From contig CALSOZ010000001.1 in assembly GCA_943788095.1 (NCBI GenBank), positions 310,001 through 374,000 on the forward strand: a stretch of 64,000 bases of DNA, read 5' to 3'. Made by a program: the position numbers and the translations under genes. Below the pieces are notes generated by a model that worked only from the letters and a program-made list of their open reading frames with translations, ran no database searches and was not told where the DNA came from. This DNA comes from an uncultured Flavobacteriaceae bacterium. GTDB lineage: Bacteria > Bacteroidota > Bacteroidia > Flavobacteriales > Flavobacteriaceae. Shown here piece after piece: positions 3,443-12,767 of this stretch; the stretch's first letter is position 1; every line of letters starts with the position of its first letter.

Positions 3443-3781
3443 ATGGATTTAAACCTTAGTATCCTCTTGTTTTCGGCAATTTCGTTTATTTTTTATGGCA
3501 TAACTTCTTTTTTTTCCAAAAGGATGTTGTCGGAATATGCTCGTTGGGGCTATAAAAATCAACGAATTTTATTGGGGTGTTTACAACTCTTAGGTGGGGT
3601 AGGTTTGATCGTAGGGATTATCAATTCAACGCTATTAATTATTGCGTCGTTTTTATTAACCTTTATGATGATTACGGCTGTTTTCGTAAGAATTAAAATC
3701 AAAGACAACATCGTTCAGATGTTCCCTGCGATTTTTTATACCGTCTTAAATTTTATAATTTTGTACAACTCAGTCGCGTAA
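3443..3781 (+). CDS. DoxX-like small membrane protein (second of a pair)
   Basis: Four-TM 112 aa protein, 3 bp after the previous ORF; YGITSFFSKRMLSEYARWGYKNQRILLGCLQLLGGVGLIVG. Confidence 0.6.
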   Translation: MDLNLSILLFSAISFIFYGITSFFSKRMLSEYARWGYKNQRILLGCLQLLGGVGLIVGIINSTLLIIASFLLTFMMITAVFVRIKIKDNIVQMFPAIFYTVLNFIILYNSVA

Positions 3782-3828
3782 CTTTTGAGAGACAAAGCGG
3801 TCGCGTTTAACAAGGCGAACGCCTTAAT

Positions 3829-4023
3829 TTAAGCCTTCTTTTTTTTCTTATTTTTAGCGGTAGGGAATCGTCCTTGATTGCCAATACCGTCCATGTCATG
3901 CTCATCGTATGCCTGTTGATGTTCATTTCGTTGGATGCGGTGTTGTTTCGAAACAATCGTCAACAAGAAATAGACGTACACTATAAAAATAATAAACCCG
4001 AAAATAAATATAAGTAAATTCAT
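3829..4023 (-). CDS. small membrane protein with Lys-rich C terminus
   Basis: MNLLIFIFGFIIFIVYVYFLLTIVSKQHR...NKKKKKA; internal ATG at 4023 preferred over the track start at 4077. Confidence 0.5.
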   Translation of the reverse strand: MNLLIFIFGFIIFIVYVYFLLTIVSKQHRIQRNEHQQAYDEHDMDGIGNQGRFPTAKNKKKKKA

Positions 4024-4190
4024 TTCTTTCTTCTTTGTCTTATGGCAATGGAAAGCGATAAAATCGACGGAACCCAAATTCCTACAAAAATTCCTTCTAG
4101 TTTATTTCCCATAAACCACAAGGTTACAGACATTAAAAAAGAGATGAATGCGAGTATAATAGGATAGTAAGCTTCAATAAAATCTTTCAT
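4020..4190 (-). CDS. small membrane protein (56 aa), below the ORF-track length cutoff
   Basis: Minus strand reads MKDFIEAYYPIILAFISFLMSVTLWFMGNKLEGIFVGIWVPSILSLSIAIRQRRKK*; stop overlaps the next start as ATGA. Confidence 0.55.
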   Translation of the reverse strand: MKDFIEAYYPIILAFISFLMSVTLWFMGNKLEGIFVGIWVPSILSLSIAIRQRRKK

Positions 4191-4279
4191 TGTTTTTTAT
4201 TTAAAGTTAGACAAGATTAGTCATTAAAGCGTTACAAAACTCATAAAATTTTAATCATTATGTTAAAATATAGCGAAAA

Positions 4280-4567
4280 ATATTTGGTTTGCATCTAATC
4301 AACAAAGACTATCAGAAGAATATTGCTATTGTAGAAAGCGAAAAGACCGCAATAATTATGAGTATTTTTTTACCTGATTTTATTTGGCTCGCTGCAGCGG
4401 GGAATGAAACTCCAATAGCGGTCTCTATTTACAATGTATCAGGCAAAGAAGTACTTTCTATAAAGAATACAAACAACATCAATGTACAAGCATTGCCAAG
4501 CGGTGTGTATGTGATTAGAATATCAGATGGTGTGGGGCAAACCAATAGAAAGTTTATAAAGAATTAA
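4280..4567 (+). pseudogene. chimeric remnant: Toprim/primase-like fragment joined to a T9SS type A sorting domain
   Basis: Frame reads FGLHLINKDYQKNIAIVESEKTAIIMSIFLPDFIWLAAAG (Bacteroidota mobile-element primase/DUF6371-like) then NETPIAVSIYNVSGKEVLSIKNTNNINVQALPSGVYVIRISDGVGQTNRKFIKN (T9SS C-terminal sorting domain). Confidence 0.6.
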
Positions 4568-4905
4568 ACAGACTTAAAATAATTTAAGAAGCCCTTTCAG
4601 AAATGTGAGGGTTTTTTTTATGCCTGCTTAAATCTACAATTATTGTGTAACTATTTGACGTAGAATGAATAATTATGTTGAGTAGTAACAGTCTTTAATG
4701 AATTCAATTTATAAAGTTATTTCAAGCAGTCAATATTTTATAATGTACCAAATGCACGAAATGAAGCCTAAAAAACAACTTTATTTTTTTACTAAAATTA
4801 TTATATAAATAAAACTAAAATAATTAAATCGTACAATAATCGTACAAATTAAGATACTAAAAAACCCCAACCTATTGATTAACAAATGGTTGAGGTATTA
4901 TTTAG

Positions 4906-4979
4906 TGGTCCCACTTGGGCTCGAACCAAGGACCCTCTGATTATGAGTCAGATGCTCTAACCAACTGAGCTATGGGACC
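4906..4979 (-). tRNA. tRNA with anticodon CAT (elongator Met, or Ile2 if the C is modified)
   Basis: Reverse complement GGTCCCATAGCTCAGTTGGTTAGAGCATCTGACTCATAATCAGAGGGTCCTTGGTTCGAGCCCAAGTGGGACCA folds as a cloverleaf with encoded CCA. Confidence 0.93.
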
Positions 4980-5026
4980 AATAAGGCTGCAATATTACAA
5001 CGTTTTTTAAAATTATAAAAAGAAAA

Positions 5027-10734: not shown

Positions 10735-11871
10735 TTTAAAGGGTGAGTGTTGTTTAAATTCTTTGATTTTTATGCGTCTTAAAAAGGGCGTTATTAAAGA
10801 ATTTATGAAGGAGTTTTTGTGTTTTATATAACAACTTAGCTCCAAAGGTTTGGCGCCTATCGTGGTTTTTATTTCGGAAGCTGTGCGACCCAAATTGATA
10901 GAAGACACTTGCTTTTCGATGCCGAGTCTTACATAATCATTTAAAATACGGGTGTAAATGGCATGGGACTTATTCAACTTGTAATCCAATCCAATAAAAT
11001 GTGCATCAAGATGGTTTTTATTGACAAGTGCCGTTAAAAAGCCAACAAGCTTATCGTCTAAAAAATAGGCTTTCACTATAAAATCTTCTTTCAAGGCCGA
11101 TCCTAGATGACTGTACGTGTTTAGATTTAAAACTTGCGCATTAAAGCTCGCATTGGCAATAGTATTTTGATACAAGGCTTGTAATTCTCCTTTATAAGTC
11201 TCCAAATCCTGTGCATTAAATATGCGTGTTTTTAAAGTGCTACTTTTGGAATCGGCTTTGTTTGCTTTGACTCGATATTTTGATTTTAAAACGTTTTTAT
11301 AATCCTCAAAATTTTTCCATTCTGGTTTTAGTTGAATAATCATATTAGGCTCCACCTTGATCTCACTATAGCCAAAATTTAAAAACTGGCGTGTATTTTT
11401 AAGAGATTCAAACCTAAAATCTTTAATGAAAAGGGCATGTAACGGTTTAGAGTTAGCGGCAACAGCATCTAAAGCGGCTCCAATTTCTTTCATAATAACT
11501 TCTGAAGAAATACTTTTGGATGTACAAATACCATGTTCACCACTCAAAAATACATTGCCACAGAACATGATTTTTATATGCTCGTTACAAAAAAAGAAAC
11601 TTAAAAATTTTCGAATGAAGGGCGCTACTTTTATATTTTTCAACATCCCTTCTACATTCAGACTAATGATCTGAACTAGCGCAAGGGCCACCGTGTTTTT
11701 ATTAATATCGGACAGAGCGATGTACTTGAATTCAATTTGAGGGTTAGAAACTTCAAAAGCTTTTAGGAATGGTTTTGAAAAATAGACGTTCTTTTCGGAA
11801 TTAATATGTTCAAAAATAACAGGGTCGATAAGATCAACTGAAGGGTATAAAGAAGTTATATAAGAACTCAT
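10732..11871 (-). CDS. hypothetical protein, possibly GNAT/FemAB-like acyltransferase
   Basis: 379 aa; C-terminal half FLDDKLVGFLTALVNKNHLDAHFIGLDYKLNKSHAIYTRILNDYVRLGI resembles GNAT-fold proteins. Confidence 0.55.
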   Translation of the reverse strand: MSSYITSLYPSVDLIDPVIFEHINSEKNVYFSKPFLKAFEVSNPQIEFKYIALSDINKNTVALALVQIISLNVEGMLKNIKVAPFIRKFLSFFFCNEHIKIMFCGNVFLSGEHGICTSKSISSEVIMKEIGAALDAVAANSKPLHALFIKDFRFESLKNTRQFLNFGYSEIKVEPNMIIQLKPEWKNFEDYKNVLKSKYRVKANKADSKSSTLKTRIFNAQDLETYKGELQALYQNTIANASFNAQVLNLNTYSHLGSALKEDFIVKAYFLDDKLVGFLTALVNKNHLDAHFIGLDYKLNKSHAIYTRILNDYVRLGIEKQVSSINLGRTASEIKTTIGAKPLELSCYIKHKNSFINSLITPFLRRIKIKEFKQHSPFK

Positions 11872-12767
11872 TTTGTAGTGTGTTGTGTCGGATTCTTAGA
11901 AACCAAATATACACCTAAAAATATTAAACCAGCTGCCAGAATTTTAACCGTACTCAAGCTGTCGCTCCCCATCATAATCGCAAAAATTCCTGCAATAATT
12001 GGCTGAATATAGACAAAGGTGCTAACGGTTGTGGCGCTCAGGCTTCGCAATGCGATTGGATTCAACAAATAGGTTGCAAATGTAGCACCCACCACAACAA
12101 ACAAAGACGAAAACCAGATATAAGGCGTGAAGCTACTCCAGTTGACAGCTGCTAACTCACTGCATCCAAATGGAAACACAAAGACGGTTCCAAACAAAAA
12201 CAACCATTTAATAAAAGTATACGGGTGGTATTTATTGGTTAATTTTTTTACCAAAATTAAATAGTAACTGTATGAAGCCGCATTTACTAAAATTAAAAAA
12301 TTACCCAATAAGACATTGTCTCCTGAGCCCATAGAACGATTGTAGATGCTTAAAATTAAGGCGCCAGAAAGCCCTGCCAAAACCCCTGCTACTTTAACTT
12401 TTGTAATCCTTTCTCCAAAAATGATCGCAGAAAGCATCAATACAATAATAGGCGTAGTAACCATAATCACTGACCCATTTATAGGGGTGGTGAACTGAAG
12501 TCCTTTGAAAAAAGCTAGCATATTAAGAGCCACTCCAAAAAGGGCCGCGAGCATAAATTTGGAAAAATCTTCTCGGTCTATTTTCTCACTAGGAGTCCAG
12601 ATACTAAACAGCCAAAAAAGGACTGTTGCTAAGCTGACTCTAAATAAAATAAACCCATAAGGCTGCATATATCCACCATCAATTACATCATTTGCAAAGG
12701 TAAAGGTTACTCCATAGAATAGCTGCACCAATAGAAGCGCAAAGAGAGCAAATCTATTATTTTTCAT
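11868..12767 (-). CDS. EamA/DMT family transporter
   Basis: Ten-TM pattern; GVALNMLAFFKGLQFTTPINGSVIMVTTPIIVLMLSAIIFGERIT. Confidence 0.88.
   Translation of the reverse strand: MKNNRFALFALLLVQLFYGVTFTFANDVIDGGYMQPYGFILFRVSLATVLFWLFSIWTPSEKIDREDFSKFMLAALFGVALNMLAFFKGLQFTTPINGSVIMVTTPIIVLMLSAIIFGERITKVKVAGVLAGLSGALILSIYNRSMGSGDNVLLGNFLILVNAASYSYYLILVKKLTNKYHPYTFIKWLFLFGTVFVFPFGCSELAAVNWSSFTPYIWFSSLFVVVGATFATYLLNPIALRSLSATTVSTFVYIQPIIAGIFAIMMGSDSLSTVKILAAGLIFLGVYLVSKNPTQHTTK

Follow-up and report, generated by a model that had tools for sequence, protein, structure and literature searches.

An apparent DUF6371–T9SS domain fusion in a Flavobacteriaceae genome is probably a deletion scar in a tRNA-integrated element

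One open frame in the genome of an uncultured Flavobacteriaceae bacterium joins two unrelated domains, and the question arises whether it encodes a new kind of protein or is left over from decay. The frame is located in a stretch of 64,000 nucleotides (hereafter the window), which lies inside a 525-kb contig of a draft genome with 23 contigs and 75% completeness. A preliminary description, made from the sequence alone, regarded the frame as a mobile-element primase fragment joined to a T9SS sorting domain, left by the decay of an element after its insertion into, or recombination with, a secreted-protein gene. The present analysis partly supports this interpretation. The domains and the decayed element were recognized correctly, whereas the insertion into a resident gene was not: the element appears to have entered the 3′ end of a tRNA-Met gene and to have brought the T9SS gene with it as terminal cargo.

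The frame runs from stop to stop over 97 codons (4274–4567, + strand), and its translation is identical to that quoted in the preliminary description. According to hmmscan, residues 3–42 match DUF6371 (PF19898; E = 3.5e-17, 63 bits against a cut-off of 27.7) and residues 42–95 match Por_Secre_tail (PF18962; E = 1e-9, 38.9 bits against a cut-off of 27). Residues 43–97 also match TIGR04183, the NCBIfam model of the type A T9SS domain (6.7e-13), in agreement with the type first assigned. When the halves were searched singly, a check that had been proposed, each kept its own domain match (4.1e-17 for DUF6371 and 5.5e-10 for Por_Secre_tail). The two-part frame is real and well beyond chance. The genuine DUF6371 homology, however, corresponds only to about positions 87–126 of the 150 in the profile. 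This piece surrounds the Toprim-like VESEKTA motif and is truncated at both ends; it ends before the PD and DxxD motifs that are conserved in an alignment of 40 members, and the zinc ribbon is absent. Upstream of the T9SS tail, the frame consists of DUF6371 and then a stop codon at 4271–4273, without the passenger or the signal peptide of the T9SS parent. The first in-frame start codons are TTG at 4289 and ATG at 4358, neither of which is convincing, and promoter scans around the frame gave no sites above chance. Because the start regions of both parents and the signal peptide are absent and the primase domain is only fractional, a functional protein is very unlikely to be produced from the frame. 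The tail differs from its relatives in 5–9 of 55 codons. Thus, the remnant is probably young, and its youth would account for the lack of stop codons in the frame.

In Pfam, DUF6371 is a domain of unknown function. The zinc ribbon PF21957 is present at the N-terminus in 35 of the 40 full-length relatives and the DnaG CHC2 finger in four, and acidic residues in the VESEKTA, PD and DxxD motifs are invariant in their alignment. The DUF6371 protein of P. glomeratus was modeled with AlphaFold2 (pLDDT 90.7, pTM 0.63), and the model was compared with the PDB. All the 25 matches at E ≤ 1e-3 are DnaG, T7 gp4, human Twinkle or T4 primosome chains (Foldseek probability 1.00), with modest TM-scores of 0.24–0.55 and sequence identities of 11–17%. 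Solved primases were linked to DUF6371 by this fold comparison alone; when PDB sequences were searched with a profile, no credible match emerged. The model supports a Toprim/DnaG-type fold for DUF6371, that is, the fold and not an activity. The first half of the frame, described earlier as a Toprim-type primase of a mobile element, agrees with this predicted DnaG/T7 gp4-like fold as well as with the DUF6371 match, and the result backs the view of DUF6371 as a putative DnaG-fold primase.

The limits of each piece were placed by alignment with relatives. Two small − strand genes, together with the DNA upstream of them, make up the conserved host left flank (3781–4280). These 500 bp are aligned by blastn with two genomes of the same genus at 97.0% (G008) and 96.8% (G013) identity and with G005 at 93.8%, and all three alignments end at 4280. 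In more distant members of the genus, the left-flank alignments stop between about 4254 and 4290. Element homology begins at 4281. The DUF6371 piece (4281–4397, + strand) shows nucleotide identities of 87% to P. glomeratus (L174), 89.5% to L176 and 75% to Wocania arenilitoris (G023). The DUF6371 relatives align until about 4387–4397, and the T9SS relatives are identical from CGGGGAATG, which begins at 4398. These alignment limits place the joint, previously assigned to the vicinity of 4397, at 4397/4398, where a codon is split G/CG. There is little or no microhomology, at most one or two bases. The joint happens to be in frame (a chance of 1 in 3), and neither piece is long enough for its lack of stops to be surprising. 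A chance in-frame junction of unrelated domains left by decay is supported.

The interval is bounded by a small conserved gene on one side, and by tRNA-Met, methylmalonyl-CoA epimerase and rbfA on the other. The distance between these flanks is 0.7 kb here, as against roughly 10–20 kb in four same-genus genomes that have the locus on one contig. The sister intervals contain variable genes including integrase, GIY-YIG and secreted-protein genes, as well as repeated tRNA-Met ends; copies of 35–59 bp of the tRNA-Met 3′ end recur as att-like repeats in the sister islands. In several draft sisters the contigs break at this interval. The open reading frames listed for 4196–4905 include no integrase and no other intact coding gene. 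No second copy of the tRNA-Met 3′ end (attL) was found within the window, as expected when the left end has been deleted. In a close sister, the left flank is followed by a YceI-like gene, for which this genome has nothing nearer than a 40%-identical homologue at another place; the absence of this gene is consistent with a loss of host genes too, albeit in a genome that is only 75% complete. The comparison of sister loci thus favors the idea of a decayed element, with host homology ending at 4280 and the element starting at 4281, but the host–element deletion at 4280/4281 had not been foreseen in the preliminary description. From the breakpoints given by alignment we infer two deletions, which are the best explanation of the locus. 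The process is ordinary genome decay.

Several other remnants and repeats were observed. Orphan C-terminal remnants of DUF6371 in four lineages (L192, L176/L344, L217 and the window at 4281) begin at nearly the same point within the gene, at profile positions 184, 188, about 190 and 200 of 302; this was noted post hoc. The common start may reflect a breakpoint hotspot or chance, and another fragment (L131) starts at 230. On contig C9 of the same genome, a second orphan T9SS tail is present as a 78-aa frame with no gene body upstream (L077:9250–9489). It has its own terminator-like hairpin and is located between two genes, with similar short sequences (gaactttcaa) on its flanks; as a second copy of the T9SS piece it was rejected, the protein identity being only about 57%. 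A 51-aa remnant of a secreted-protein gene is found at 2597–2752 (− strand) of the window, where G013 and G008 have a 107-aa orthologue (78–82% identity); it is another decayed gene, upstream of the locus. In the same-genus genome G009 (L060:2570–4559 and 11457–12038), a 391-bp unit composed of the last about 35–42 bp of tRNA-Met and a gene for a 119-aa GIY-YIG nuclease is repeated head to tail, with five copies at the tRNA and more 7 kb off. One copy is present in G003 (L058:15654–16119). The unit looks like a minimal tRNA-associated unit, each copy restoring the tRNA end.

The kind of element is indicated by its intact relatives, in which DUF6371 follows a P4-family primase-helicase (TIGR01613, 4.1e-51; PHROG DNA primase). 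In W. arenilitoris, the order is tyrosine integrase, HTH protein, primase-helicase, DUF6371 and the shared right end, which adjoins tmRNA. A complete element with integrase, HTH, primase and DUF6371 genes is located at tRNA-Met in P. glomeratus, and 14 bp of the tRNA 3′ end are repeated at a distance of about 6.9 kb. In the window, the right end (4743–4904, + strand) reaches the 3′ end of tRNA-Met (CAT; 4905–4979, − strand, detected by ARAGORN), the integration target. The region 4742–4982 is 80% identical to that of P. glomeratus, and the right end is 74% identical to that of W. arenilitoris. According to an eight-way alignment, the right end is conserved while the adjoining RNA gene varies (tRNA-Met, tRNA-Cys, tRNA-Leu or tmRNA). 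Within the distances searched, a tRNA or tmRNA gene is found near 26 of the 42 DUF6371 loci of the family, and its 3′ end is directed toward the element in all 26. The geometry of the window is the same, the element end adjoining the tRNA-Met 3′ end, and both the right end and the tRNA gene are intact. No other copy of DUF6371 is present in the same genome. The right end, of about 160 bp, is a usable marker by which such elements can be located at tRNA genes together with their cargo. In the literature, one paper was found to mention DUF6371 once, and no directly useful account of such elements, or of chimeric pseudogenes derived from decayed prophages, emerged from the search. Beside the integrase of DUF6371 elements, a protein of 440–460 aa is encoded (L078:2755–4080 and L337:7727–9115) that has no PHROG match; the W. 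arenilitoris copy has none in Pfam or NCBIfam either.

The T9SS piece (4398–4567, + strand) comprises the last 55 codons of its gene, a type A sorting tail, with the stop codon at 4565–4567. It is followed by a 3′ untranslated region (4568–4742, + strand) that is 92.7% identical to L334 and is also conserved in L165, L166 and L246. This region contains a hairpin-plus-T terminator at about 4586–4620 (−15.2 kcal/mol, z −2.15), which was unlisted by a simple terminator scan. From 4398, past the stop codon and through the terminator, the DNA matches Polaribacter AH-578-A01 (L165) at 92% over 313 bp, and two IMG/VR contigs (L245 and L246) match the T9SS part at 96% over 226 bp. The matched genes encode DUF285/PARCEL surface proteins with a type A tail. 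It is known that PARCEL genes move together with mobile elements (PMC2996958). On contig C17 of Polaribacter AH-578-A01, positions 4549–4909 of the window are matched as one 91% block beside tRNA-Cys, in the order PARCEL-like T9SS gene end, terminator, element right end and tRNA-Cys. Since this Polaribacter block contains the T9SS 3′ end, the terminator and the right end without interruption next to a tRNA, the T9SS gene was most likely cargo, the last gene of the element itself, and not a resident gene hit by insertion. If so, the junction at 4397/4398 would be an internal deletion. The Polaribacter contig begins inside the T9SS gene, and no DUF6371 match is present in that genome. Neither the 42 loci with long flanks nor the DUF6371 loci of the collection scans included an intact element that combines DUF6371 with a PARCEL/T9SS gene. 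A possible exception is Flavobacterium terrae (L206), in which a 152-aa T9SS gene, a candidate member of the element, is located about 2.2 kb downstream of DUF6371. As no complete element of this composition was found, it is the shared right end that supports the cargo step, which is given most, not all, of the weight.

Related arrangements occur elsewhere. In two Polaribacter genomes (L336:7895–9841 at tRNA-Leu and L338:561–1868 at tRNA-Cys), only secreted-protein genes and the right end are found at the tRNA, and the stretches read are without integrase or primase; cargo may outlast the element core. The PARCEL–T9SS genes of L245 and L246 belong to another kind of mobile element, their neighbors being serine recombinase genes and genes for small 'GRPKG/GSQNK'-type proteins. 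We suggest, tentatively and at somewhat less than even odds, that the DUF6371/P4-primase elements constitute a little-described tRNA/tmRNA-targeting family of Bacteroidota with a shared right end, some of which deliver T9SS-anchored PARCEL proteins as terminal cargo between genera. In that case, cargo-plus-right-end loci at tRNA genes, as in Polaribacter, would be scars where the cargo outlived the element.

The history of the locus may be reconstructed as follows. Judging from its relatives, the element would have carried a tyrosine integrase, an excisionase-like HTH protein, a P4-type primase-helicase and a DUF6371 primase, with a T9SS surface protein as the last gene. As in the relatives, it would have entered the 3′ end of tRNA-Met by site-specific recombination. 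One deletion would then have removed attL, the integrase, the primase, the start of DUF6371 and neighboring host genes, joining host position 4280 to DUF6371 at 4281. In the other, an internal deletion, DUF6371 would have become fused at 4397/4398 to the terminal 55 codons of the T9SS cargo gene. We assign a probability of about 0.8 to this explanation as a whole, namely two deletion scars in a tRNA-integrated element. With the same confidence, the frame is regarded as an accident of decay and not a new kind of protein: a chimeric pseudogene within the remnant of an integrated mobile element.

An unlikely alternative is that the tRNA-Met island already contained the T9SS gene, as a resident or as part of an earlier, different element at the same tRNA, and that a separate DUF6371 element was stacked there before a deletion joined the two. 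In the 42 DUF6371 loci, a T9SS gene never intervenes between DUF6371 and a facing tRNA. Another tRNA-Met island, in Polaribacter (L165), contains a PARCEL–T9SS gene and has its own tyrosine integrase and a tRNA-end repeat of 69 bp that is divergent. Sister genomes also have T9SS genes in the interval; however, the LamG–T9SS gene of G003 is on the opposite strand, and its tail identity is only 49%. Moreover, the tail in the window sits between DUF6371 and the right end, and the T9SS 3′ end, untranslated region and right end form the single 91% block in Polaribacter. An assembly chimera at 4280/4281 or 4397/4398 is considered improbable. The genome is an incomplete draft, and several sister drafts have contig breaks in related islands, but the window is interior to its long contig, the order and orientation of the flanks are as in four sister genomes, and each piece of the locus occurs once in the assembly, the pieces following one another as they would in an element at a tRNA. 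Expression of the frame as a new small chimeric protein, for example 69 residues from ATG 4358 with a hydrophobic start and the T9SS tail, is hardly credible: the frame is open and the tail little changed, but the parental start regions are absent, there is neither a positively charged signal-peptide-like start nor a promoter-like site above chance, one copy is known, and a recent deletion accounts for the stop-free frame. A genuine DUF6371–T9SS fusion family, raised at the outset as a possible refutation, was rejected for want of a second example, since none of the 40 full-length DUF6371 proteins has a Por_Secre_tail and, at the sensitivity used, no gene with both domains was found among the matches in 84,980 species genomes, IMG/VR, phages and plasmids. 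Insertion of the element into a T9SS gene was likewise rejected, as DUF6371 and the right end flank the T9SS piece, which is internal to the element, and the 5′ part of the T9SS gene is nowhere near.

An apparent domain fusion is thus traced to a probable deletion scar. This is a lesson for automatic annotation, in which a 97-aa open frame with two good domain matches would pass for a fusion protein.

Compared with the DnaG, T7 gp4 and Twinkle primases, DUF6371 has a similar predicted fold and a zinc ribbon, of the DnaG CHC2 type in some members, whereas the sequence identity is just 11–17% and the piece in the window is one part of the Toprim-like region. The tail and the 3′ untranslated DNA are 92–96% identical to those of the T9SS-tailed PARCEL (DUF285, TIGR02167) surface proteins of Polaribacter, of which only the tail is left in the window, all the repeats and the signal peptide being gone. 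With the DUF6371 integrative elements of Bacteroidota (the P4-primase type, as at tmRNA in W. arenilitoris and tRNA-Met in P. glomeratus), the locus shares the DUF6371 piece, the right end, the order and the orientation to the tRNA 3′ end. It differs in what has survived, namely no more than the right end and a DUF6371 stretch of about 0.1 kb, the integrase, primase and left end being lost, and in having a T9SS tail in between, which is absent from the intact copies sampled. Among degenerate prophages and integrative-element remnants at tRNA genes, it differs in that no left attachment repeat was found in the window, so that excision is unlikely even with a helper. In its other features it resembles them closely: a decayed element at an intact tRNA gene, truncated genes and a chance fusion.
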